Part shown: positions 7,687-23,866 of the stretch, one piece after another
Layout of the letters: every line of letters starts with the position of its first letter
Numbering within the stretch: position 1 is the stretch's first letter
Source: Ramlibacter terrae
Lineage (GTDB): Bacteria; Pseudomonadota; Gammaproteobacteria; Burkholderiales; Burkholderiaceae_C
Assembly (NCBI GenBank): GCA_013127575.1
Contig: CP053418.1
Span: forward strand, 4,092,001-4,156,000
DNA length: 64,000 nt
Reading direction: 5' to 3'
Notes under the pieces: model-generated
The model's database searches: none
The model's input: only the letters and a program-made list of their open reading frames with translations
What the model was told of the DNA's origin: nothing
Program-made: the position numbers and the translations under genes

Positions 7687-8906
7687 CTACGCAGTCGGCA
7701 TCGCCGTGGGGAGTAACAAGATTGTCGTGAAACCCACCAGCGGTGGCGCCAGCCAGCGCCGCGCGCGGGCCTGCCCGATCGCGCGGACCTGCCCCGCCGC
7801 CTGCAGCTCGGCCAGCGCGCGCTGCACGGTGCGCTGGCTCGCATCGAGCGCCAGCGCCAGCGCCGACGTCGACCACGCGGCGCCATCGGACAACAGCGCC
7901 ACCAGCGCCGCCTGCTCGCCGGGGATCGGCGGGACCAGCACGGCCACGGGGGCATCGCCGACGGGCCGCAGGGCGAATCCGCGCGCCGTCGCTTCGATGC
8001 GCGCCATCGGCTTGGCGAGCGCGCGCAGCCGTCCGATCTCCACCCGCAGCCGGGCGCGGTGCGTCTCGTCGGGCTCGCGCATGCGGAACGCCGTGGCGAT
8101 CAAGGCGTCGCGCTCCACGTCGTTCGGCCAGGCCTCGGCCAGCGCTTGCGCCGGGGCGAACAGGATGGGACGGCGGGCCAGCGGCTGCGACGCGCCCGCC
8201 AGCGACAGGCCGCGCCTGCACGCATCCAGCACCAGCGTGCCGGAGGCGAGCAGCGCCTCGATCTCCTCCAGCCGCACCGCATGCTCCACGCCGCTGCGGC
8301 GGCAGCGCGCCGCCGGCCGCTCCAGCGCGGCGCTCGCCTCCGCCACTTCCGCGATCAGGGCCGGCACGCCGGCGCGCTGCGCGGCCTGCGCGGCACGGGC
8401 CAAGGCGGCTTGCGCGGGAGCGCAACGCAGCGAGCGCAGCGCCAGTTCCGCCGCGGTCAGTTCCGCCACCGCCGCCAGCGTCGGCGGCAAGCCGCTCGCA
8501 TCGAACGCGTCCAGCAGGGCGGCCGCTTCGGCGAGGCGCCCCACCAGCACCAGGCGCCGCGCGGCGACGAGCCGCGCATGCAGCGCATTGGCGCGATCGC
8601 CATGGAGTTCCAGCGTGGCCGCAGCAGCCGCCAGCGCACGCGGCGACCCGCCCAGTCACGCAGGGCGAGCGCCACCTCGGCTTCGGCGACCGCGCAGCGG
8701 GCACGCGCCACGGCCTCCTGGGGCCGGAAGGCGCGCCCGGCGCGGCGCAGCAGGTCGCGCGCCAGCGCCAGTTCGCCGAGCTGCGCCATCGCGATGCCGC
8801 GCAAGGCCAGCGCGGGCGGATCGTCGCGCAATGCCACGCGCTTGAGCGCGCCCAGCGCGTCGCCCGCGGCGAGTGCGCGGGCCGAGGCGGCGATCAGCGA
8901 ATCCAC
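7687..8906 (-). CDS. Helical-repeat protein with C-terminal winged helix, frameshifted
   Basis: This encodes about 406 residues. The N-terminal two thirds are Ala/Leu-rich antiparallel helices like TPR or bacterial activator repeats. The C-terminal part has a predicted winged helix (STSALALALDASQRTVQRAL followed by AGQVRAIGQARARRWL), so it is probably a transcription factor. The GTG at 8904-8906 follows the dehydratase stop by three bases. One break is near 8630. Regulators of this layout beside a small YncE-like propeller are common in Burkholderiales, but I recognise no characterised member. Confidence 0.6.
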
Positions 8907-8909
8907 GCG

Positions 8910-10728
8910 CTAGTGGTTGTCGCGCGGCAGCCCGAAAGTGGTGTTGATCCGCTGGTACTTCACCGCCGGCTTGAGCACCATGCCCTCGGAGAGCTCGCCC
9001 ACGATGCCGCGCTGGATCTCCTGCCACGGCGTCTGGCTGGCCGGGTACTTGTAGCCGCCGGCGGCTTCGAAAGCCGCGCGGCGTTTCGCCAGCTCGGCGT
9101 CGCTCACCAGCATGTTGGCCGTGCGCTTCTTCAGGTCGATGCGGACGCGGTCGCCGGTCTTGAGCAAGGCCAGCCCGCCGCCGTTGGCCGCCTCGGGCGA
9201 CGCGTTCAGGATCGAAGGCGATCCCGATGTGCCGGACTGGCGGCCGTCGCCGATGCAGGCGAGCGCCGTCACGCCCTGCTTGAGCAGGTAGTCCGGCGCG
9301 CGCATGTTGACGACCTCGGCCGCGCCGGGATAGCCGATGGGGCCCACGCCGCGCATGAACAGCACGCTGGACGCCGTGATCTTCAGCTTGGGATCGTCGA
9401 TGCGACGGTGGTAGTCCTCCGGCCCGTCGAACACGACCGCGGTGCCTTCGAAGGCCATCGGGTCCGCCGGGTTCTCCGGTACTGCTGGTGGAACTCCGGC
9501 GTGATCACGCTGGTCTTCATGATGGCCGAGTCGAACAGGTTGCCCTTGAAGTGCAGGAAGCCGGCGTTCTTCTTCATCGGCTTCGCGTACGGGAAGATCA
9601 CCTTCCGGTCGCTGGTGAACTGGCCTTCGCAGTTCTCGATCAGCGTCTTGCCGTTGGCCGTCAGCGACGGCTTGATCAGGCCGCGCGCGATCAGTTCCGC
9701 CACCACCGCGGGCACGCCGCCCGCGCGGTAGTACTCCTCGGCGGTATTCGCCCGCCGGCTGCAGGTTGACCAGCAGCGGGATCTTGTAGCCGTGCTTCTC
9801 CCAGTCGTCCATCGTCAGTTCGACGCCGACGTGCTTGGCGATGGCACACAGGTGCACCGGTGCGTTGGTCGAGCCTCCGATGGCCGAATTGACCACGATG
9901 GCGTTCTCGAAGGCGGCGCGCGTGAGGATGTCGGAAGGCTTCAGGTCTTCGCGCACCATCTCCACGATGCGCTTGCCCGTCAGGTACGCCATCTCTCGGC
10001 GGTCGCGGTAGGGCGCGGGAATCGCGGCGCTGCCGGGCAGCGTCATGCCCAGCGCTTCCGCCAGCGAGTTCATGGTCGACGCGGTGCCCATGGTGTTGCA
10101 GTGGCCGGTGGACGGCGCCGACGAGGCCACCAGCTTCAGGAACTCCGGTAGCCGATCTCGCCGGCGGCCATCATCTCGCGCGCCCGCCAGACGATCGTGC
10201 CGGAGCCGGTGCGCTCGCCCGGTACCAGCCATTGAGCATGGGGCCGGAGTTCAGCGCGATGGCCGGGATGTCGACCGTGGCCGCAGCCATCAGCTGCGCC
10301 GGCGTGGTCTTGTCGCAGCCGGTGGTGAGCACCACGCCGTCGATCGGGTAGCCGTACAGGATCTCGATCAGCGAGAGGTACTGCAGGTTGCGATCGAGCG
10401 CTGCCGTCGGGCGCTTGCAGGTTTCTGGATCGGGTGGATCGGGAATTCGAAGGCGATGCCGCCGGCGTCGCGGATGCCCTCGCGCACGCGCTGGGCGAGC
10501 ACCGGTGGTGCCGGTTGCACGGCGCGATGTCGGAGCCGGTCTGCGCGATCCCGATGATCGGGCGGCCGGATTGCAGTTCGTCGAAGCCCAGGCCGAAGTT
10601 CATGGTGCGCTCGGGTAGAGCGCGGTCATGTCGGCGTTGGCGGGGTTGTCGAACCACGCTTGGGAGCGCAGGCGCGGCAGCGCCTTGCGGCCGGGGGCCT
10701 TGCGTTCGGGGGATTTCTTGTTCTTCAT
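8910..10728 (-). CDS. IlvD/Edd-family sugar-acid dehydratase (L-arabinonate-dehydratase-like), frameshifted
   Basis: This is an Fe-S dehydratase of about 606 residues that removes water from an aldonate to give a 2-keto-3-deoxy acid. The cluster-ligand segments [11 protein letters not shown], a GCDKTTPAQ-type segment (around 10310) and [14 protein letters not shown] are all present. The C-terminal block [16 protein letters not shown] is diagnostic. The pentonate-dehydratase branch is suggested by [15 protein letters not shown] and [14 protein letters not shown]. At least six one-base breaks occur (near 10608, 10510, 10420, 10225, 10150, 9745 and 9480). The ATG overlaps the DenD stop (ATGA). 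Context argues for sugar-acid catabolism rather than branched-chain amino acid synthesis. Confidence 0.85.
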
Positions 10729-11740
10729 TGGAGGCCTTTGAGGGTTTGCGCCGCGGTCGGGAGGGCGCGGCAATCGTCGATGTACTGCTGCACGATCTCT
10801 GCGAAGTTCTCGTGCGGCTTCAATCCGAGCCGGGCGGCACGGGCCGCGCTGGCGCCACCGGGCCAGTTGGCCACGATGCCGGCGATGCGCTCGTCGCGCT
10901 CGAAGCGCACCAGCTTGCGCACCGCCGGGCCGGCCACCTGTTCGACCGCATCGAGCATCTCGCTCACGCGCACGTTGAGCGCCGGCAGGTTCATCGCGGT
11001 GCGGCCCGGGAACTGCTCGCGCGAGGCTTCGTAGACGGCGATCAAACCATCCACGGTGCGTGAAGGCGACGACACCGGATGCGAAACGTCGGCCGAAACC
11101 GGGCACACGGATTCGACGCCGGCGAGCGGCTCGCGGATGATCCCGCTGAAGAACGAGGACGCCGCGCCGTTGGGCCGGCCCGGCCGCACCGTCACCGTCA
11201 TGAGGCGCGCCGCGCGGCCGTCGATGAAGCCCTTGCGCGTGTAGTCGGCCACCAGGTGCTCGCAAATGAGCTTCTGCGTGCCGTAGGAAGTCTGCGGCGC
11301 CGGCAGCGTGTCGTCGGCCACCAGCTTGGGCAGCGGCACCGCCGGATCGGGCCCGAACACGGCCACCGAGCTGGAGAAGACGAGGCGCGTGAGCTTGCCG
11401 CCCGACGCGGCGTTCGCGCGCAGTGCGTCGAGCAGCGCGCGCGTGCTGTCCAGGTTGGAGCGCATGCCCAGGTCGAAATCGGCTTCGCATTCGCCCGACA
11501 CGGCGGACGCCGGTGGAACACGCCGTCGAAAGCTTCGGTGCGCAGCGCGTCGGCCTGCGACAGCAACGTGCCGGTGCGCGCTTCGACGCGCGGGTCGGCC
11601 AGCAGGTCGGCCGGCGGCGGCGCGATGTCGGCCAGCACCAGGCCGTCGATACGCTCGCCTGCCAGCGTGCCGCGCGCCAGCAGCGTGCGGGCGAGGCGGG
11701 AGCCGAGGAAGCCCCCGCCGCCGGTGATCATCAGTCTCAT
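10725..11740 (-). CDS. denD: DenD-like D-erythronate dehydrogenase (extended SDR), frameshifted
   Basis: This is an NAD-dependent extended SDR of about 338 residues. It has the Rossmann motif [11 protein letters not shown] at the N-terminus, the Tyr-x3-Lys pair in SYGTQKLIC, and the DenD-type block [20 protein letters not shown]. DenD oxidises D-erythronate to 2-keto-D-erythronate. One break lies near 11505. The stop overlaps the dehydratase start, and the start overlaps the GntR stop, both as ATGA, so translation is coupled. The exact substrate could also be another aldonate or uronate. Confidence 0.8.
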
Positions 11741-12480
11741 GGTTTTTCCTTCGTGGATCGGGTGCGCCGCTGCGCGGGAATGACGCCGCCTTCCACCAGC
11801 CGCTGTTCGCCGCTCAGGATGTGGCGGGTGGCATGGTGGCGGGCGGCCGCGGGGTCGCGCGCGGCAATGGCTTCGACGACCTCGCGGTGTTCGTGCTGCA
11901 CGGCCTGCATGAAGTCGCGGCGCCGCGCCTCGTTGCCGCGCGTGATGCGCATGCCTTCGCGCAGGTACTGCTCAAAAAGCCGAGCAGCAGGCGGAACTGG
12001 GGATTGCCGGCGCATTCGCCGATCGCGCGGTGGAACGCCGGTCTTCGGCGACGCCGTCGCGGCCTTCGGCGACGGCACGGTCGATGGCCTTGAGGGCGCG
12101 CCGCAGCTGCGCGATCTGGGCCCGCGTGGCGCGCTCGGCCGCCAGCGCCGCGATCTCGCCTTCCAGCACCCGGCGCACTTCGATGACGTGCACCACGGCC
12201 TCGACCGATTCGAGCACCGACGGGTCGAAGGCCAGCGGCTGGTTGACCGCTCGCGGCGCGACGAACACGCCCGAGCCCGGCGCGCCACCACGAGCGCGCG
12301 CGACTTGAGCTGGTGCATGGCTTCGCGCACCACGGTGCGGGACACGCCGTGCGCGGTGGCCAGCTGCTGCTCGGTGGGGAAACGGTCGCCGGGGCCCAGC
12401 ACACCGGACGCGATCTGCGCGGCCAGCCGGGCCGCGAGCCGGTCGGACAACCGCTCGGTGACCAGTGGCGCGGGGGTCAC
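11737..12480 (-). CDS. GntR/FadR-family regulator, frameshifted
   Basis: This encodes about 248 residues with an N-terminal GntR winged helix (GDRFPTEQQLATAHGVSRTV, VVREAMHQLKSRALV) and an all-helical C-terminal FCD ligand-binding domain (FHRAIGECAGNPQFRLLLGF, HREVVEAIAARDPAAARHH). Breaks occur near 12275, 12040 and 11975. It heads the minus-strand operon with denD and the dehydratase and is divergent from the ABC transporter. It is the natural local repressor of both units, sensing a sugar acid. Confidence 0.85.
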   Translation of the reverse strand: MTPAPLVTERLSDRLAARLAAQIASGVLGPGDRFPTEQQLATAHGVSRTVVREAMHQLKSRALVVARRARACSSRRERSTSRWPSTRRCSNRSRPWCTSSKCAGCWKARSRRWRPSAPRGPRSRSCGAPSRPSTVPSPKAATASPKTGVPPRDRRMRRQSPVPPAARLFEQYLREGMRITRGNEARRRDFMQAVQHEHREVVEAIAARDPAAARHHATRHILSGEQRLVEGGVIPAQRRTRSTKEKP

Positions 12481-12519
12481 TGTGGGGTCTGGACATGGGC
12501 TTGGAAATCGAAGGCGGTT

Positions 12520-12540
12520 ATCAGGTCATCATACAAATTG
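12520..12540. promoter_or_regulatory. Candidate operator between GntR and ABC operon
   Basis: The 187-base gap between the divergent GntR and ABC-transporter genes holds an AT-rich island, reading TTGTATGATGACCTGAT on the minus strand. It resembles FadR-subfamily operators described for sugar-acid regulons in related bacteria. That link is inference from position and composition. Confidence 0.4.
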
Positions 12541-12667
12541 CCAGCCTTTCGACTAGCGGGTTTCCCTGATAGGCGGCTGACGGGTTCCGTGCCGATACTG
12601 CGCCAGCCGCGATGAGCACTTTCTGCTGCCTCGCGGTTTTTCACGGCACCCCGGAGGGCATCAGCGC

Positions 12668-13740
<1,073 letters not shown>

Positions 13741-13781
13741 CTGATTCGTGATCGTCCGTTCAAACCACCGAGGAGACAGAC

Positions 13782-15109
13782 ATGAGTGAGTTCAATCGCC
13801 GGAAATTCCGGAGGGCTCGGCCAGCGTCGCGGCCGCCGCCGGCATGGGCGCGGGCGCCGCGGTGTTCGCGCCCGCGGTGCACGCGCAGGCCCTGAACCTC
13901 AAGCCCGAGAAGGGCGCCAAGCTGCGCGTGCTGCGCTGGAGCCGCTTCGTGCAGGGCGACATCGACGCCTACATGGTGAACGTCAGGAAGTTCACCGAGA
14001 AGACCGGCGTCGAAGTGCGGGTCGACAACGAAGGCTGGGAAGACGTGCGGCCGAAGGCGGCCGTCGCCGCCAACACCGGCGCCGGCCCCGACATCATCCT
14101 GTCGACCAACGACGACGCCAACCTGTACCCCGAGAAGCTGCTCGACGTCACCGACGTCGCGGAATACCTCGGCAAGAAGTACGGCGGCTGGTTCCCCGCC
14201 GTCCACCAGTACCTGCGCCCCGACGGCAAGAAGTGGCTGGGCCTCGGCACGGGCGCCGCCGGCTCGATGATCGTGTACCGCGAAAGCATGGTGAAGGCCG
14301 CCGGTTTCAGCAGCTTCCCGAAAGACACCGCCGGCTTCCTCGCGCTGCACAAGGCGCTGAAGGACAAGGGCACGCCCGGCGGCTATGCGCTGGGCAACGC
14401 CACCGGCGACAGCCTCTGGACGAACTGGCTGCTCTGGTCGCACGGCGGCCAGCTGGTGGACAAGAACAACAAGGTGGTGATCGACAGCCCGGAGACGATG
14501 AAGGCGCTGGAATACGGCAAGGAGCTGTACGCCAACTTCATCCCGGGCACGCTGTCGTGGCTCGACCCGAACAACAACAAGGCCTTCCTCGACGGGCAGA
14601 TCAGCGTCACCAACAACGGCATCTCGATCTACTACGCCGCCAAGAACTCGACCGATGCCAAGGTGAAGGAACTGGCCGGCGACATCCAGCACGCCTCGTT
14701 CCCGATCGGGCCGGTGGGCGTGCCGACCGAGTCGCACCTGTTCTTCAACCAGATGATCTTCAAGTACACGAAGTACCCGCAGGCGGCCAAGGAGTTCCTG
14801 CGCTTCATGATGGAGCGCGAGCAGTTCGAGCCGTGGCTGACGGGCGCGGGCGGCTACATCGCCCACCCGCTCGCGGCGTACAAGTCGGCGCCGATCTGGA
14901 CGTCGGACCCGAAGCACACGCCGTACCGCGACTGCGTGAAGAACATGCGTCCCACGGGCTACGCCGGCAAGCTGGGCTACGCATCCGCCGGCGCCGGGGC
15001 CGACTTCATCGTCGCCAACATGGTGGCCGAAGCCATCAGCGGCTCGAAGTCGCCCAAGGAAGCCATGGAACGCGCCCAGAAGCGCGCCGAGCGCTACTAC
15101 AAGGTCTGA
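13782..15109 (+). CDS. Extracellular sugar-binding protein of ABC transporter (family 1), frameshifted leader
   Basis: This is a periplasmic family-1 solute-binding protein of about 443 residues. It has a Tat-like leader (SEFNRRKF..., then Ala-rich to VHAQA), broken by one base near 13812; the mature part from 13844 is intact. Typical stretches are VLRWSRFVQGD, GPDIILSTNDDANLYP and LFFNQMIFKYTKYPQAAKEF. It delivers a carbohydrate or polyol-like ligand to the permease pair that follows. A GAGGAGA ribosome-binding site precedes the ATG. Confidence 0.9.
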
Positions 15110-15119
15110 GAGGGCCGGC

Positions 15120-16092
15120 ATGACGAATCCTGCGGTGCCATCGACCACGCACGTTGGTGCGCCGCAGGCGCGCGTCCCCCGGCTGCCGTCGCTGCTGGAG
15201 CGCTTCCAGAACAACCGCAACGCGCTGGGCTGGGCGTTCATGCTGCCGGCGACGGTGCTGCTGCTGCTGTTCCTGACCTATCCGCTCGGCACGGGCACTG
15301 GCTCGGCTTCACCGACGCGAAGATCGGGCGCGGCGGCGAGTGGGTCGGGCTGGAGAACTTCAGCTTCCTCGTCGGCGACAGCGTCACCCGCCTGGCGCTG
15401 TTCAACACGCTGTTCTACACGGTGGTCGCAAGCATCTTCAAGTTCGTGCTGGGCCTCTGGCTGGCGCTGCTGCTCAACAAGCGGCTGCCGTTCCAGAGCT
15501 TCTTCCGCGCGGTGGTGCTGCTGCTGCCCGGATCGTGCCCACCGCGCTGTCGGCCATCGCTTTCTGGTGGATCTTCGACGCGCAGTTCTCGATCATCAGC
15601 TGGGTGCTGGTCAAGCTCGGGCTGATCGACACCTACATCGACTTCCTCGGCAACCCGTGGAACGCGCGCATCTCCACGATCATCGCCAACGTGTGGCGCG
15701 GCATCCCGTTCGTGGCCATTTCGCTGCTGGCCGGCCTGCAGACGATCTCGCCTTCGTACTACGAAGCCTCTGCGATCGACGGCGCCACGCCGTGGCAGCA
15801 GTTCCGCCACATCACGCTGCCGCTGCTCACGCCGATCATCGCGGTGGTGATGACGTTCTCGGTGCTCTTCACGTTCACCGACTTCCAGCTGATCTACGTG
15901 CTCACGCGAGGCGGCCCGCTCAATGCGACGCACCTGATGGCGACGCTCGCGTTCCAGCGCGGGATTTCTGGCGGCGCACTGGCGGAAGGCGCAGCCATCG
16001 CCACGCTGATGGTGCCCTTCCTGCTGGCCGCGATCATGTTCAGCTACTTCGGGCTGCAGCGCCGCGCCTGGCAACAGGGGAGCGACAAGTGA
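15120..16092 (+). CDS. Sugar ABC transporter permease (MalF/UgpA type), frameshifted
   Basis: This inner-membrane permease of about 324 residues has six predicted helices. The first is LGWAFMLPATVLLLLFLTYP. The EAA loop, which docks to the ATPase, reads YYEASAIDGATPWQQFRHIT with LPLL following. Breaks lie near 15292 and 15530. The last codons overlap the next permease start (GTGA). It is partnered with the second permease and the ATPase at 12668. Confidence 0.9.
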
Positions 16093-16964
16093 AGGAGTCG
16101 AAGAACAACGACGCATCGCAGGGCATGGACTTCCTGCAGTCGATGCCGCGCCGCTGGGTGATGCTCTACATCCCCATCGGCATCTTCGTCTTCGTGCTGC
16201 TGTTCCCCTTCTACTGGATGGCGATCACGTCGTTCAAGCCCGACAACGAACTGCTCTCGCGCACCGGCAACCCCTTCTGGATCATCGGCCCCACGCTCGC
16301 GCACTTCGAGAAGCTGCTGTTCCGCACCGAGTACCCGGCCTGGCTCTGGAACACGGTGATCGTCTCGGTGATCGCCACCGGCATCTCGCTCGTGGCGTCC
16401 ATCCCGGCGGCGTACGCGATCGAACGGCTGCGCTTCGGGGCGCCAAGCCCGCGGGCGGCGCGATCTTCTGGCCTACCCGGTGCCGCCTTCGATCCTGTTC
16501 ATTCCGCTTGCGGCCATCGTCGTCAAGCTCGGGCTGTTCGACAGCCGCATGGCGCTGATCCTCACCTACCCCACCTTCCTGATCCCGTTCTCGACCTGGC
16601 TGCTCATGGGCTACTTCCGGTCGATCCCGTACGAGCTCGAAGAGTGCGCCCTGATCGACGGCGCCACGCGCTGGCAGATCTGGTCAAGATCGTGCTGCCG
16701 CTCGCCGTGCCCGGCCTGATCTCCGCCGGCATCTTTGCCTTCACCCTGAGCTGGAACGAGTTCATCTACGCCCTCACCTTCGTCTCGTCGAGCGAGAACA
16801 AGACGGTGCCGGTGGGCGTGGTGACCGAACTGGTGGAAGGCGACGTCTACCACTGGGGACCGCTGATGGCCGGCGCGCTGCTCGGCTCGCTGCCGGTGGC
16901 TTTCGTGTACTCTTTCTTCGTCGAGTACTACGTGTCGGGCATGACCGGATCGGTCAAGGAATAG
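16089..16964 (+). CDS. Sugar ABC transporter permease (MalG/UgpE type), frameshifted
   Basis: This is the second CUT1 permease, about 292 residues. It starts at a GTG that overlaps the previous TGA. The first helix is YIPIGIFVFVLLFPFYWMA. The EAA loop is ELEECALIDGATRWQIW, followed after a break by KIVLPLAVPGLISAG. Breaks lie near 16450 and 16682. The stop TAG is followed at once by the ATG of the dehydrogenase, so the two are translationally coupled. Confidence 0.9.
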   Translation: MKESKNNDASQGMDFLQSMPRRWVMLYIPIGIFVFVLLFPFYWMAITSFKPDNELLSRTGNPFWIIGPTLAHFEKLLFRTEYPAWLWNTVIVSVIATGISLVASIPAAYAIERLRFGAPSPRAARSSGLPGAAFDPVHSACGHRRQARAVRQPHGADPHLPHLPDPVLDLAAHGLLPVDPVRARRVRPDRRRHALADLVKIVLPLAVPGLISAGIFAFTLSWNEFIYALTFVSSSENKTVPVGVVTELVEGDVYHWGPLMAGALLGSLPVAFVYSFFVEYYVSGMTGSVKE

Positions 16965-17861
16965 ATGGCGGAACAGAAAGTCGGCGTGATCGGGCTCGGG
17001 GCCATGGGCTCCGGCATGGCGGCGTCGCTGCGCCGCGCGGGATACGACGTCGCGGTGTTCGACGTGCGCGCCGAGGCGGCGCGAAAGTTCGCCGCCGATG
17101 GCGGCACCGCGTGCGCAAGCGTCGCCGAACTCGCGGCGCGGTGCGACGTGGTGGTGAGCGTGGTCGTGAACGCCGCCCAGACCGAAAGCGTCCTCTTCGG
17201 CGAAGGCGGCGCCGCTGCCGCGATGCGGCCGGGCAGCCTGTTCGTCATGTGTTCGACGGTCGATCCCAACTGGTCGGCGGCGCTCGAAGGCCGGCTGGCG
17301 GAGCGCGGCCTCCTCTACCTCGACGCACCGATCTCCGGCGGCGCCGCCAAGGCCGCCTCGGCGCAGATGACCATGATGACGGCCGGCACGCCCGAGGCGT
17401 ATGCGCGGGCCGGCGGCGTGCTGGATGCGATGGCCGCCAAGGTCTACAAGCTGGGCGACCGCGCCGGCGCGGCCAGCAAGGTGAAGATCATCAACCAGCT
17501 GCTGGCCGGCGTGCACATCGCCGCCGCGGCCGAAGCGATGGCGCTCGGCCTGCGCGAGGGCGTCGACCCGGCGTCGCTGTACGACGTGATCACGCACAGC
17601 GCGGGCGCGAGCTGGATGTTCGAGAACCGCATGGCGCACGTGATCGCCGGCGACTACACGCCGCTCTCGGCCGTCGACATCTTCGTGAAGGACCTCGGGC
17701 TGGTGCTCGACCTCGCGCGCGCCACCAAATTTCCCCTGCCCCTGTCGGCCACCGCCCACCAGATGTTCATGCAGGCGTCCAGCGCGGGCTACGGCGGCGA
17801 GGACGACAGCGCGGTGATCAAGACCTTCCCCGGCATCGAGCTGCCGCGCAAGCGCGACTGA
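16965..17861 (+). CDS. ltnD: L-threonate dehydrogenase-like 3-hydroxyacid dehydrogenase
   Basis: This intact 298-residue member of the 3-hydroxyisobutyrate dehydrogenase family has the NAD-binding motif GLGAMGSGM at residues 10-18, the substrate loop DAPISGGAAKAAS at 120-132 and the catalytic Lys in KVKIINQ at about 174. The run HIAAAAEAMALGLREGVDP and the GDYTPLSAVDIFVKDLGLVL block are close to LtnD, which oxidises L-threonate to 2-keto-L-threonate. It closes the ABC operon with no intergenic gap, so the imported compound is probably a hydroxy acid. An erythronate or other aldonate substrate is possible. Confidence 0.85.
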   Translation: MAEQKVGVIGLGAMGSGMAASLRRAGYDVAVFDVRAEAARKFAADGGTACASVAELAARCDVVVSVVVNAAQTESVLFGEGGAAAAMRPGSLFVMCSTVDPNWSAALEGRLAERGLLYLDAPISGGAAKAASAQMTMMTAGTPEAYARAGGVLDAMAAKVYKLGDRAGAASKVKIINQLLAGVHIAAAAEAMALGLREGVDPASLYDVITHSAGASWMFENRMAHVIAGDYTPLSAVDIFVKDLGLVLDLARATKFPLPLSATAHQMFMQASSAGYGGEDDSAVIKTFPGIELPRKRD

Positions 17862-18521: not shown

Positions 18522-20326
18522 GGCTGCCGGCTGCTCGGTGGAGCGGAGGGCAGCGGCACGCGCACCACCAGGCGCGTGCCGCCGTTCGATTCGAAATGGT
18601 GCTCGCCGTCCGGGTTGCGCACGCGCCGCTCGATGTTCAGCAGCCCGTGTCCCTGCCGGCGTTCTTCCGGCGCGGGGAGGCCGCGGCCGTCGTCTTGCAC
18701 GTCCAGCACCACCTCGCCCGGCGGAAAGCCGATGCGCACCGTGCACCGGGTGCCTCCGCTGTGGCGGATCGCGTTGGAGACGGCCTCGCGCAGGATGCGG
18801 GTCAGCTGCACGTGCGTGCGCGCCGGCAGGATGGCGCCGGCGGGCGGCTCCTGCGCCTCCCACGTGCCCGTCATGCCGGCGTCGGCCAGCCGCGTGATGG
18901 TTTCTGCGCGCCAGTCGGCGAGCGCATCGGTCGTCATCGTCGCGCCGCCCGTGAGCCCGCGCACCGACAGGCGCATCTCCTCCATCGCCGACCGCGCCAT
19001 GCCCGCGACGCGCTGCGGATCGGCGCCCCGCTGGCTGGCCTGCGCGATGGTGAGCAGCTGCGCGCCGAGGTCGTCGTGCAGGTCGGACGCGATGCGGCGG
19101 CGCTCGTCCTGCGCCGCCTGCTCGGTGCGCAGTTGCGCGACCTGCTGCCAGCTCTTCTCGATCTCGCTCGATTTTTCGGCGACGCGCTGCTCCAGCTGTG
19201 CGTTGAGCGTTTCGGCCTGGCCCAGCGCCTGCACGAACAACTGGATGAGGCGGCCGCCGACCACGCCGAACAGCACCGGCATCGCGAAGTGGATGACGTG
19301 GACCTTGGGCAGCGGCAGCAGGTCGTTCTGCAGCGCCACCTCCACGGCGGTCAGCACGATCGCGAACAGCAGCACGCCGCCCATCAGCCAGAAATCCTCT
19401 CGGTGCCTGCGCCAAGCCACCCGAAAGAAGCAAGCCACCACGACGAGGAATTCGAGCGCGAGCGCGTCGTAGACCAGCGTGGCCACCGCGAGCAGGCGGT
19501 GCGGCGCGGCCGCCACCAGCGCCGCCGGGACGAGCAGCGCCCTGCCCCGCCAACGCCCACCCGATCCAGCGCCTGCGAACTTCGACCGGGTGCAGCAGGA
19601 ACAGGTAGGCGCAGGCGACGACGGGCGGAAACGCGCTGCAGATCAGGACCTCCATCGCCTCGTTCGACAGCGGCACTGGCGGATGAAAAGCCGGGTGCTG
19701 ATCAGGCCCCAGCCGGCCGTGAACAGCCCGAAGTACAACAGGTAGGAATCGCGCCGGCGCAGCGTCCACAGGCACACCATGGCCAAGCCCAGCACACCGA
19801 CCATCGCGGCGATGATCTGGGCGGCGGTGATGTTCCAGAACAGCTGGCGGTCGTACATCGGCTGCAGCGCCTCGATGGCGCCGACGCTCACGGCCGACAG
19901 TCCCCCGGCCCGCTGCCGCGCCGACACGTCCTCCACGGCATGCCCGGCCACGCGGATGCGCAGCTCGTTGCCTTCCGGCCGCAACAGGGCGCGGGGGATG
20001 GCGAAGAGGTGCGGGTAGTAGCAGGTGCGCGCGACCGGCGGCGCCATGCGGCCGCCGCTGCCGACCACTTCGCCGTTGACGCGCACTTCGAGGTTGGCGC
20101 AGGCGCGCTGCACGTAGACACCCGCCAGGCGATCGTCCTGGGGCGCGGCGAAGTCCAGGCGGTACTCCAGGCTGCCGGAGAAGCCGGGGAAGCCCTCCTC
20201 CCAGTCGTGGGGAAGGGCCACCCGCCGCCCTTCGACGACCGCCTCGCGCAGCGTGAGCACTTCGCCCCACGCCGCGGGCAGCACGCAGAGCGCGCAGCAA
20301 AGGGCCGCCCAGCGCGCAAGGATCAT
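18518..20326 (-). CDS. Membrane sensor histidine kinase with periplasmic jelly-roll domain, frameshifted
   Basis: This encodes about 603 residues. A signal or first helix (WAALCCALCVLPAAWG) precedes a periplasmic jelly-roll-like region with LPHDWEEGFPGFSG and LEVRVNGEVVGSGG, like DISM extracellular domains. Several membrane helices follow, then a coiled coil and a HisKA_3 H-box DERRRIASDLHDDLGAQ. The HATPase N-box is REAVSNAIRHSGG and the G-box DDGRGLPAPEERRQGHGLLN. Breaks lie near 19668 and 19545. It is the NarX-like partner of the downstream regulator. The signal is unknown; a carbohydrate ligand is possible. Confidence 0.85.
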
Positions 20327-20406
20327 CGGACTCCGGGAGTGTTGGAGAGCGACTGTAGCGATGAAGGGCTTGCCGGTGAACCCCTCCATTCGAGGGGCCG
20401 GGGAGT

Positions 20407-20457
20407 TGGTGCCGATTGTCCGAATCGAACGGACGACCTACCGCTTACAAGGCGGCA
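20407..20457 (-). repeat. 3' fragment of tRNA-Thr(TGT), probable attachment-site remnant
   Basis: On the minus strand this reads as the 3' half of a tRNA. The anticodon arm pairs GCCGC with GCGGT around the loop CTTGTAA (anticodon TGT, Thr). A perfect T arm follows (GTCCG-TTCGATT-CGGAC), then an acceptor 3' strand AATCGGC, discriminator A and CCA. The D arm and 5' acceptor strand are missing: bases beyond 20457 do not fit. A tyrosine recombinase starts 190 bases away, so this is best explained as the displaced 3' end left by integration into a tRNA-Thr gene. Confidence 0.8.
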
Positions 20458-20521
20458 AGGATCGGTTGGAAATGGTCCTGTGGCTGTGGCCTGCTCGGCG
20501 AGCAGTCACTAACACGGACAC

Positions 20522-20538
20522 ACCCGTTTTGTGCGGGT
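20522..20538. other. Short inverted repeat
   Basis: ACCCG and CGGGT flank a 7-base TTTTGTG loop between the tRNA fragment and the integrase. It could be a recombinase arm site or a weak hairpin. The evidence is only the symmetry and the position. Confidence 0.35.
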
Positions 20539-20648
20539 TCAGCTGTATAGCTCCATAACCTTTTACTTACTTTCAGTATACCGTGCGCCGGCACAGAAAA
20601 AAGCCGAACTACTGATCGCTTCACTGCCCTCCCATCACGAGGTGCAGC

Positions 20649-22061
20649 ATGAGTGTCAAGGAAATCAAGATCAAGTCGGGCAAGACCAAGTACCAGGCGC
20701 AGGTCTGGTACGACAACCAGTATTTCGCGGCGAAGACCTTCGAGCAGCGGTCGCTCGCGGAGAAGTGGGAAGAAAGGACATACGCCGGGCCGTCACAGGA
20801 GACATCCTGCCTGCGGCTGCGCGCGCCAAGAAGCGCGAACTCGAGGCGCAGCTCGAAGCCATCAAAGCAGCACTGGACAGTCCGCTGCTGCCCTATGCCT
20901 TCCGCTACGTCGAAAGCCAAGCCACTTGGACAACACGGAAGCACGGTGAGTCGCGCAACAGGGACTATCTCCGCGTGGCCACCCCGGCGGGAGAGACGCC
21001 GCTGCGCGCCTTCAGCGGCGAAGCCGGTCGCCGCCTGATTCCTGAGTTCGCCGCCATCCTGTACGCCTCTCGACGGTCGAAATCCAACAAACCGAGGCCG
21101 GCAGGATCCCCACCGCTGCAGCCCTTGAAGCGCAACACTGTGAGGCTGTTCTTGACAGCCTTGTTTCGCCTGCTGGCTTGGATTCGTACCCAGCTTCCCA
21201 AGGAAGCGGAGTTCATCGTCCCTGATCTCGAGGAAATGACCCGCTTCGGTTGGGCGCTGCCGGCAGCACACGCTGTCCCTCGGACGCGCGAACCCAGTGC
21301 GTTGGAGTTCGCACAGATTCTCAGGGTTATTGGCGTCAACAGCCCGCTCGGTGAGCTGCTGCAGATCCAGGACGAGACCGGCTGCCGCTTGAGCGAGGTG
21401 GCGAAGGCCACCGGTTCGCGAGTCACTTTCATCTTCGGGGAGAAAGGCGAGTTGGTCGGCGGCAACCTGCACTGGTGGAGCACAAGACCGTGCACAAGAT
21501 CGAACGACCGCGCGACGTTCCCCTGTCCCCTGGTCGCTGCTCGCCTGCCTGCTGCAGGCCCGCAAGAAACTCCCGGGCGACGGCCGGCTGTTCCCGACGC
21601 TGCGGAGTTCGGACGCGATCTGCAAGCTGTTCGACGCTGCCTGTAAACGGGCTGGCGTGTCGAACCTCGTCACCAAGGACTTTCGGCGCAGTTTCGCCAA
21701 CCGGAACAAGACATGCGTGCCCTACGTCGACATGGTGCATATCCTCGGTGACTCGCATCTGCTGGATGCTGATGATGCGAGTGCTGGCGAGAAGGCTGTC
21801 CAGGACGCCTTGGGCCACACCACGCTTCGGACCACAGTCGCCTACACGGTCCCGAAGGAGGAGGCTCTTGCTCGCACGTTCACGAGCACCAGCCGAAACG
21901 CTAAAGTCTTGGCCTTGGTGGATCAACTGGAGGCCGGCGACCGACGCAACGCGATCGCTGAAGGTCCCGTTCACGTGCCCGCGCCAGTGGCGCCGACCCC
22001 GGAGGTGCTTGCTCTGGCGCGCGCGTTCGGCACCTACGACGAAACCTTCGGGTCGCTCTAG
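20649..22061 (+). CDS. Tyrosine recombinase/phage-type integrase, frameshifted
   Basis: This site-specific recombinase of about 470 residues starts MSVKEIKIKSGKTKYQAQV after a GAGGTG ribosome-binding site. The N-terminal part resembles an arm-binding or SAM-like domain. The catalytic domain is recognisable: box-I Arg in ETGCRLSEVAK, a beta-hairpin Lys in EHKTVHKIERPRDVPL, the box-II segment TKDFRRSFANRN, and ALGHTTLRTTVAYTVP with the Tyr nucleophile. Breaks lie near 20772, 21472 and 21530. It sits beside a tRNA-Thr 3' fragment and differs in codon use from its neighbours. It may be active, given the error pattern of this sequence. Confidence 0.85.
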
Positions 22062-22157: not shown

Positions 22158-22487
22158 TCACCGCGCACGGGCGCGGACTTCCATCTGCAGCAGGAAGCTG
22201 GACAGCGCTTTGCCGTGGGCATCAAGGTTCAGGGCCGCATTGACGCCGCCATCCAGCACGCCATCTAGCACGAAGTTCATCGCGCCCAGTCGCGGCAGCA
22301 GGTAGCGCCGCACCGAATGCGGCCGACGCAATGCGAAGTGCCTGGCGACCGCTTCTTCCGTCACCTGTTCGACCAGCAGCGGGTAGGACGCGGCGTCGAA
22401 GGCCACCACGCTGATGTTGGAGCGGTCGCCCTTGTCGCCGGTGCGGCCGTGCGCCAGCCGGTACAGCGGCACGGTGCGGGCCGTCAT
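22158..22487 (-). CDS. AtuA-associated small domain protein
   Basis: This intact 109-residue protein carries the motif LAHGRTGDKGDRSNISV near its start, typical of the ferredoxin-like domain found C-terminal to, or as a separate partner of, AtuA/DUF1446 proteins. The ATG overlaps the upstream AtuA stop (ATGA). A second ATG 12 bases upstream would add four residues. It is the last gene of the minus-strand operon. Its biochemical role is not established; it probably forms a complex with the AtuA homologue. Confidence 0.8.
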   Translation of the reverse strand: MTARTVPLYRLAHGRTGDKGDRSNISVVAFDAASYPLLVEQVTEEAVARHFALRRPHSVRRYLLPRLGAMNFVLDGVLDGGVNAALNLDAHGKALSSFLLQMEVRARAR

Positions 22488-23866
22488 GGCGTGGCCCATG
22501 CGAAGCCTGCCTGCACCGCCTCGCGCGGCACCAGGCAGGAGAGGTTGTTCAGGCGCGCGGTCAGCGTGGTCCGCACACCACCGCCGCCGGCCGGGCCGCA
22601 GGTGTAGAGCGCCGTCACTTCGCGCAGGAGGCGCTCGGCTTGGCGGCGTTCGGGATGGGCGGCGGCGGCGCGCAGGCGCACGTCTTGCGCGTCGCCTGCC
22701 CCGCTTGCGGCGAGTGCCGCGCCGGCGTCGTCACCCAACACGCTCACGACGCCGATCAGGTCGAAGCGAACCTCCAGCGCGGGCAGCCGTTCGCGCAGCA
22801 CCTGCACCGCCGGGCGGGCTCGCGCTTCGGCGCGCGGGCCGGCGTAGGAGATCTCGCCTTCTGCCAGCCAGCCGCCCTCGTGGAAGATGTTCGCCTTGAG
22901 CGTCGGTGGCCTCGGATGGCCGCGCACCCCGCGCAAGGTGACCGCGTCGAGGCCGAGCTGTTCCACCTCCGCATCGGTGATGTCCGCCACCACGTCGGGC
23001 GTGAGGTAGGCGGCCGGATCGTGCACCTCGTACAGCAGCTGCTCCTTGACGGTCGCCAGCGTGACCATCCCGCCGGTGCCGACGGCTTTCGTCACCGTGC
23101 AGCTGCCGTCGGCACGCAACTCCGCAATCGGGAAACCGAGCGCGTGCAGCCCCGGCACTTCCTTGAAGCCGGGGTCGGCGAAGTACCCGCCGGTGACCCG
23201 GGCCCCGCATTCCAGCAGGTGGCCCGCCATGGTGCCGCCGGCGAGCCGGTCCCAGTCGTTCCAGGCCCATCCGAAGTGGGCGACCGCGGGACCGAGGGCC
23301 AGCGAGGGGTCCGCCACCCGGCCTGCGACGACGATCTGCGCTCCCGCGTCGAAGGCGTCGGCGATCGGCCGCGCGCCGAGGTACACATTGGCGCTGACGA
23401 CACGGATGTCGTCGAGTCGCGGCCCCGCGGCCGCGCGCAGCACCGGCCGCACCGCTTCGCCGGACACGTCGTCGCCGCTGACGACGGCGATGCGCGGCGA
23501 GGTGAGCCCGATGCGCGCGGCGAGCGCGTGGATCGCTTTCGCGGCGCCGGCCGGGTTGGCGGCGCCGAAGTTGCCGACGATGCCGATCCCATGCTGCAGG
23601 CAGCGCGCCAGCACCGGCTCCAGCAACTCCTCCAGCAATGGCTCGTAGCCCGCTGCCGGGTCCTGCCGGCGGCGCAGCTGGGCGAGAGCCAGCGTACGTT
23701 CCGCCAGCGTCTCGAACATCAGGAAGGCGCGCGAGCCCGGCGTCTCGCGGCAGCGTTGCACCAGTGTCTCGACCACGGGGCCGGCCGCATCGGTGCGGTC
23801 GCCCGAGAAGCCGGCGGCGCAGCCGATGAACACCGGCGGCTTGCCCTCGCGTGTTTCAGTAGCCAC
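22484..23866 (-). CDS. atuA: AtuA-family (DUF1446) acyclic-terpene-utilization-like protein
   Basis: This intact 460-residue DUF1446 protein is named after AtuA of the Pseudomonas acyclic-terpene pathway. The N-terminal IGCAAGFSGDRTDA, the MFETLAERTLALAQ segment, and the internal GTMAGHLLECGARVTGGYF and KAVGTGGMVTLATVKEQLLY blocks are family hallmarks. It starts at a GTG that overlaps the end of the dehydrogenase gene by 11 bases. The function of AtuA itself is unsolved. Here it sits with a hydantoinase-type pair and an aldolase instead of terpene genes. Confidence 0.88.
   Translation of the reverse strand: MATETREGKPPVFIGCAAGFSGDRTDAAGPVVETLVQRCRETPGSRAFLMFETLAERTLALAQLRRRQDPAAGYEPLLEELLEPVLARCLQHGIGIVGNFGAANPAGAAKAIHALAARIGLTSPRIAVVSGDDVSGEAVRPVLRAAAGPRLDDIRVVSANVYLGARPIADAFDAGAQIVVAGRVADPSLALGPAVAHFGWAWNDWDRLAGGTMAGHLLECGARVTGGYFADPGFKEVPGLHALGFPIAELRADGSCTVTKAVGTGGMVTLATVKEQLLYEVHDPAAYLTPDVVADITDAEVEQLGLDAVTLRGVRGHPRPPTLKANIFHEGGWLAEGEISYAGPRAEARARPAVQVLRERLPALEVRFDLIGVVSVLGDDAGAALAASGAGDAQDVRLRAAAAHPERRQAERLLREVTALYTCGPAGGGGVRTTLTARLNNLSCLVPREAVQAGFAWATP

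Follow-up and report, generated by a model that had tools for sequence, protein, structure and literature searches.

The interval from 20404 to about 111606 is, with a probability of roughly 93%, one genomic island, which a tyrosine recombinase inserted into tRNA-Thr(TGT), a gene with a single full-length match in the Ramlibacter terrae genome. Positions refer to the window, the whole stretch of 64,000 nucleotides that was analysed (bases 4092001–4156000 of a single 5.28-Mb contig; completeness 63.7%), and are continued past its ends as window equivalents. The island fills 20404–64000 of the window and runs on to window-equivalent 111606 (contig 4203606), 91.2 kb in all. This reading rests on the attachment (att) cores, on the arrangement found beside related integrases, on an excisionase-like gene and on empty sites in relatives. 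The kind of island is ordinary, insertion at tRNA genes being a well-known route of gene gain; this example is unusually large and clearly mapped. Both ends are now fixed for a 91-kb catabolic island, which is tied to a family of integrases whose attachment core, reaching from the anticodon stem to the CCA end, is nearly constant, and the family recurs in four genera at one DciA-tRNA-Thr(UGU)-SspB site.

Two copies of a tRNA-Thr 3' end

The left att site, read as the displaced half of attB, is a 3' fragment of tRNA-Thr(TGT) at 20407–20455 on the reverse strand. It keeps four of the five bases of the anticodon stem 5' strand, the loop, the anticodon 3' strand, the T arm, the acceptor 3' strand and CCA, and lacks the D arm and the acceptor 5' strand, which confirms the original observation of a truncated tRNA that has lost its 5' half. 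ARAGORN calls no tRNA in the window, where no intact copy had been seen before either. The intact gene lies at contig 4203607–4203682 on the reverse strand (window-equivalent 111607–111682) and carries the same 49 bp, so that the two att cores are identical; the core-to-core spacing is 91,200 bp on one strand and one contig. The fragment and this gene are the sole two genome matches to the tRNA query (E <= 1e-8), and an exact, correctly oriented 49-bp repeat is far beyond chance. The intact tRNA adjoins SspB (PF04386, E = 2e-24) and a GST-domain protein, which we take to be SspA. Searched with Rfam, 20200–20700 gave no tRNA match for the fragment, its sole match being a plastid family at chance level, and no repeats were found within 20300–20700.

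It had been predicted that the element would lie to the right of 20407, with an intact tRNA-Thr(TGT) beyond the window on the same strand, and that it might span the whole 22–64 kb catabolic region. The intact copy indeed sits to the right of the fragment and not to its left, 91.2 kb away beside sspB, and the island extends past the window end. The interval thus shows the features by which Islander defines an island, namely an intact tDNA and a cognate fragment on one replicon and the same strand, with an integrase gene between them.

On the proposed mechanism, the element would have entered as a circular form that recombined with the tRNA gene inside the anticodon arm. The 5' half of the host gene would then be joined to the 3' half that the element brought with it, restoring a working tRNA at the far end, and the 3' half that the host had before would be left next to the integrase; excision of the presumed circle would be the reverse reaction. 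Carried between the att sites as cargo would be 73 kb of catabolic genes (22.1–95.6 kb) and a low-GC segment (95.7–111 kb), which could have entered in a single event or have built up inside the element.

A frame-broken integrase and its relatives

Homology and profile matches place a tyrosine recombinase (integrase) at 20649–22061 on the forward strand, near full length by homology but split by this assembly into three or more reading-frame pieces. The recombinase predicted beside the fragment is therefore real, though weakly scored. First, its C-terminal piece matches PF00589 with E = 1.2e-3, under the curated cut-off. Second, a scan of two pieces against PHROGs gave a match to PHROG 216 (E = 1.3e-5). 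Third, three pieces cover most of three open relatives (447, 457 and 477 aa) at 34–47% identity. The alignment of the pieces contains the catalytic R, K, R, H and Y of tyrosine recombinases, within TGCR, KDFRR, GHTT and AY; in KDFRR a Lys replaces the usual His, and the KHKT-type lysine falls where the sequence was read by eye, in a different frame.

The broken reading frame counts against the island reading, but the assembly is rich in indels: 24 single-base indels were found in 13,536 bp of conserved flank, or ~1.8 per kb (measured on L003:1-13886, an indel being counted when at least 60% of four or more relatives support it). Because two to three breaks in 1.4 kb are what this rate predicts, they say little on whether the integrase is dead or alive. 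They may be assembly errors, and frameshifts in the window should not be read as pseudogenes. Ahead of the integrase gene, TTCAGTATACC at 20572–20582 recurs at L068:12909-12919, likewise ahead of an integrase gene; in these two sequences it possibly marks a promoter or an arm-type site.

Relatives of the integrase are rare. Within the genus, two of the 58 other genomes matched (G048 and G014), and G048 holds a true relative; G014 (E = 8.4e-4) was rejected as a family member on comparison with the full integrases, and its 3.2-kb locus has no tRNA match. A family sample of 398 other genomes, in each of which the seven best candidates were scored, yielded a relative in three (G365, G476 and G598). 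None was found in phages, plasmids, viral contigs or named genome contigs, where records very near this genome are possibly absent, nor in the other 299 sampled genomes of the order, and no solved structure matched a profile of the aligned integrases.

All four related integrases adjoin a tRNA 3' fragment whose limits fall within two bases of those at 20407–20455 (three tRNA-Thr, one tRNA-Asp). In each, the fragment ends in the anticodon stem 5' strand, the integrase lies on the side of the lost 5' half, and a matching intact tRNA is present beyond the integrase. The tRNA-Thr(TGT) elements measure 25,494 bp from fragment to intact tRNA in G365 (cores identical over 49 bp), 12,581 bp in G476 (identical over 55 bp) and 11,035 bp in G598, where the copies differ in the T arm. 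The G048 element occupies tRNA-Asp(GTC) and measures 67,901 bp, with cores matching at 53 of 54 positions; by reading and alignment, its integrase has lost the middle part and is frame-broken. That island (G048:C9:1512616-1580596) has a GC content below its flanks through most of its length. Across the family, the integrases are 34–49% identical in pieces to that of the 91-kb island and share its layout, with the integrase at the fragment end and the intact tRNA opposite. The three Thr elements differ from the island in length (11.0–25.5 kb), and G048 differs in its target tRNA and in its integrase without a middle.

In G365, G476 and G598, which represent three other genera, relatives of SspB and SspA follow the intact tRNA in every case. 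A relative of the DciA-family gene of the left flank (PF05258, E = 1.7e-5) is the next gene beyond the fragment in G476 and G598, whereas in G365 ~6 kb separate the two. Because these neighbours recur, related integrases have entered one DciA-tRNA-Thr-SspB site in four genera. By tblastn (E <= 1e-6), the integrase and an excisionase-like gene are all that the three Thr elements have in common with the island, while the G048 element shares with it catabolic-family genes at 27–46% identity and a second recombinase module.

The excisionase-like gene lies at window-equivalent 111165–111491 on the reverse strand, ~115 bp from the intact tRNA. It matches HTH_17 (E = 1.3e-7) and an excisionase-family domain at 26.8 of 28.8 bits, just below the NCBIfam cut-off, a slight shortfall that counts against the island reading. 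Its homologues, at 47–53% identity, lie near the same end of the G598 and G476 elements and 2.1 kb from the tRNA in G365. Since both the integrase and this gene have relatives at the same ends of other elements, the 91-kb interval is bounded on both sides by matching components of a single family of elements.

Empty and occupied sites in the genus

The distance from the left-flank gene to tRNA-Thr was measured in 48 genus relatives that have both on one contig and strand. It is at most 250 bp in 25 of them, between 250 and 5000 bp in 14 and greater than 5 kb in nine, with a maximum of 49.1 kb; at 117,717 bp, the distance here is the largest. The 25 include G054, whose tRNA is cut by the contig end; three relatives with the genes on different contigs were set aside, and the flank gene has no match in eight of the 60 genomes. 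These 25 empty sites go beyond the Islander definition, to which the comparison was added, and the nine occupied ones mark the DciA-tRNA-Thr-SspB site as an insertion hotspot.

Fragments with the same limits occur in 3 of 60 genus genomes: this one, G059 and G015. The layout of G059 is the simplest (flank, fragment, 26.7 kb, tRNA, SspB side), and that of G015 runs flank, 20.1 kb, fragment, 29.1 kb, tRNA. PF00589 has no match on the contigs of the G059 and G015 islands.

Cargo and composition of the island

The first catabolic cargo gene belongs to the AtuA family, of acyclic terpene utilisation (22484–23866, reverse strand; PF07287, E = 3.4e-140). At contig 1358077–1359689 lies a sequence with 71% DNA identity to this gene. 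Ten further ORFs scanned between 25906 and 62937 encode hydantoinases A and B, a biotin carboxylase, an ATP-grasp protein, a PEP mutase/ICL-like protein, an aldehyde dehydrogenase, an AMP-binding protein, an FAD/ETF protein and two acyl-CoA dehydrogenases. Among the ORFs scanned over the whole of 22.1–95.6 kb, those with matches are mostly catabolic, and the segment also encodes class III CoA-transferases, a thiolase, ETF, a TctC receptor and regulators of the LysR and LuxR types. Shared synteny of the catabolic region with all relatives would have spoken against an acquired origin, but 22.1–41.9 kb is syntenic in none of the 59 genus relatives (five best candidate places per genome, E <= 1e-150), the best matches being single genes at 67–76%. 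No conjugation family (relaxase, type IV secretion) and no phage structural family was met in the 44 island ORFs Pfam-scanned outside the integrase, many of which have no match at all; that these ORFs show no transfer route argues against the island reading.

Composition does not mark the left boundary. The suggested check for a compositional shift at 20.4 kb bears out only in the 1.7-kb integrase stretch, where GC falls to 0.616 and the tetranucleotides are far from the core; no sharp change in GC or tetranucleotides is seen otherwise, and the strong shift comes at 95.7–111.6 kb. As a test of the left edge, the GC/tetranucleotide shift was accordingly rejected, and its absence outside the integrase is a point against the island. 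The cargo at 22–95.6 kb has a host-like GC of 0.667–0.703 by segment and is moderately off-core in its tetranucleotides, its 8-kb correlations with the core over 20–92 kb being 0.63–0.84, mostly below the core minimum of 0.81 (16 windows). With both island ends fixed, this catabolic region can be recognised as acquired in spite of its native-looking GC.

The segment at 95.7–111.6 kb has a GC of 0.622–0.633 and a tetranucleotide correlation with the core of 0.26 and 0.62 by halves. At its left edge, where GC drops, lies a second tyrosine recombinase (95.7 kb; PF00589, E = 1.3e-4, under the cut-off), which could mark a separate element and to that extent weakens the case for a single island. The module around it, at 95.7–99.6 kb (L005:11691-15600), is 72, 61 and 56% identical in pieces to a module 7.2–10.5 kb inside the G048 tRNA-Asp island, which encodes a 671-aa recombinase. 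A KptA gene also falls in the low-GC segment (L005:14280-15197). Near the intact-tRNA end, an AAA ATPase and S8 peptidase pair (L006:1475-4379) matches IetA and IetS partially and under the NCBIfam cut-offs, and from these matches the far end of the island carries IetAS-like predicted phage-defence genes.

These contrasts within the interval raise a composite history, in which a small integrase element like those of G598, G476 and G365 occupied the tRNA first. Other recombination would later have placed the 73-kb catabolic block between the ends of that element, so that the block lies inside the att sites without having arrived with the integrase. The integrase stretch and the 95.7–111.6 kb segment are both low in GC and far from the core, the block between them is host-like in GC and moderately off-core, and its right edge is marked by the second recombinase. 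The related Thr elements, at just 11–25 kb, likewise suit an initially small element and count against a single large one. However, the 67.9-kb element of G048, with GC mostly below its flanks, shows that large elements of the family exist, and a second tRNA-Thr fragment was not found around the catabolic block: at the 95.7-kb recombinase edge, the words tried gave none at up to two mismatches, the nearest similarity being one shared 11-mer at 98.5 kb. We regard later addition of the block as a real possibility, with the odds tilted somewhat against it.

Inserted DNA to the left of the fragment

The preferred reading, a single 91-kb island, fixes its left att site at 20.4 kb, as the original prediction of an edge there had proposed, but the DNA to the left is not undisturbed flank. 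The match of the relatives' left chromosome to this contig stops at 4085886, window-equivalent -6114, and a 26.5-kb segment, here called E1, occupies -6.1 to 20.4 kb (start about -6106; 1–20403 within the window), from the conserved flank to the fragment. It is absent between flank and tRNA in the relatives and is thus also inserted. With the conserved flank stopping 6.1 kb before the window begins, the junction at 20.4 kb falls inside a larger variable region.

E1 is largely native-looking and carries catabolic and sugar-transport genes. Its tetranucleotide correlation with the core is 0.87 and 0.90 by halves, with 8-kb windows of 0.78–0.80 over 0–12 kb. A sugar-transport operon at 8.9–17.0 kb is, in whole or part, 78–87% identical to copies in the genus; in six relatives that have both on one contig, it lies 0.4–2.2 Mb from tRNA-Thr. 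The 3-hydroxyisobutyrate-dehydrogenase-family gene that neighbours the operon in E1 is also its neighbour in G052. The stretch 8906–17861, which comprises this sugar-acid/ABC-transport operon and the dehydrogenase-family gene, is therefore genus-native DNA that lies elsewhere on the relatives' chromosomes.

One account of E1 is a tandem array, in which E1 entered this tRNA earlier as an element of its own, its fragment then decaying and its integrase being lost, and the 91-kb island integrated second. A 13/16 match to the tRNA 3' end is found at -6106, ~25 bp past the apparent stop of the flank gene, where relatives carry the tRNA, and G015 is stacked alike. The match is a possible decayed tRNA scar; three others as good occur in 164 kb on both strands, the two true copies excluded. 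Against an older element stand the mostly core-like composition of E1 (even though some windows fall to 0.78–0.80), the native operon and dehydrogenase gene that relatives keep elsewhere, and the lack of an integrase remnant: below E = 0.3, neither E1 nor the islands of G015 and G059 gave a remnant of the integrase family or of the excisionase-like gene. An earlier integration at this tRNA is a possible explanation of E1, with the odds moderately against it, and its junction may instead be a misjoin in an error-prone contig. A fragment that arose by chance, as an unrelated tRNA remnant or through misassembly, in otherwise ordinary chromosome is very improbable even in an indel-rich contig of 63.7% completeness, since the exact 49-bp core has an integrase at the fragment end and the arrangement is repeated at five loci in five genomes (this one and four others), four of them at the same chromosomal site.

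Relation to known islands

As far as PMC4383910 sets them out, the islands of Islander number 3919, of which the commoner type A, with its site centred on the anticodon, makes up 2083. The single island proposed here resembles those described there in its intact tDNA, its correctly oriented cognate 3' fragment, the integrase between them and its type A site; it differs from them in its 91 kb, its catabolic cargo, its integrase, frame-broken in this assembly, and the 26.5 kb of largely native-looking DNA on its outer side, between flank and fragment. The clc-like islands GI1–GI3 of Bordetella petrii, in the account that PMC2717098 gives of them, are stacked at a tRNA gene and have captured core-like host DNA in the array, and in both respects (stacking at a tRNA gene, core-like DNA between) they are similar to the region studied here. 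Unlike it, they use the last 18 bp of tRNA-Gly and are ICEclc-like, whereas the island described here has a 49-bp core and tRNA-Thr(TGT) as its target, and its scanned ORFs showed no conjugation genes. Coarse literature searches found no description of this island or of its integrase family; a search on tRNA-Thr with Burkholderiales islands found nothing, and one on Ramlibacter islands found nothing on this island by title.

Possible replacement of the tRNA 3' half

Islands at this site may act as agents of gene conversion, each integration giving tRNA-Thr(UGU) the element's version of its 3' half, from the T arm through the acceptor 3' strand to CCA; on the sequences compared, we consider this close to an even call. 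The genus genomes searched have a single full-length match to tRNA-Thr(UGU); if the idea is true, the T arm of this gene would evolve partly by horizontal replacement. The site makes it possible to ask whether tRNA genes are partly rewritten by islands. In this genome and in G365 and G476, the fragment and intact copies are identical and carry no T-arm signal. In G059, G015 and G598, by contrast, the T arm of genus members is found, unchanged or almost so, in the displaced fragment, and the intact tRNA has a different, internally paired one. The T arm of the G015 fragment is that of the intact tRNA in G009, G012, G013, G048 and G075.
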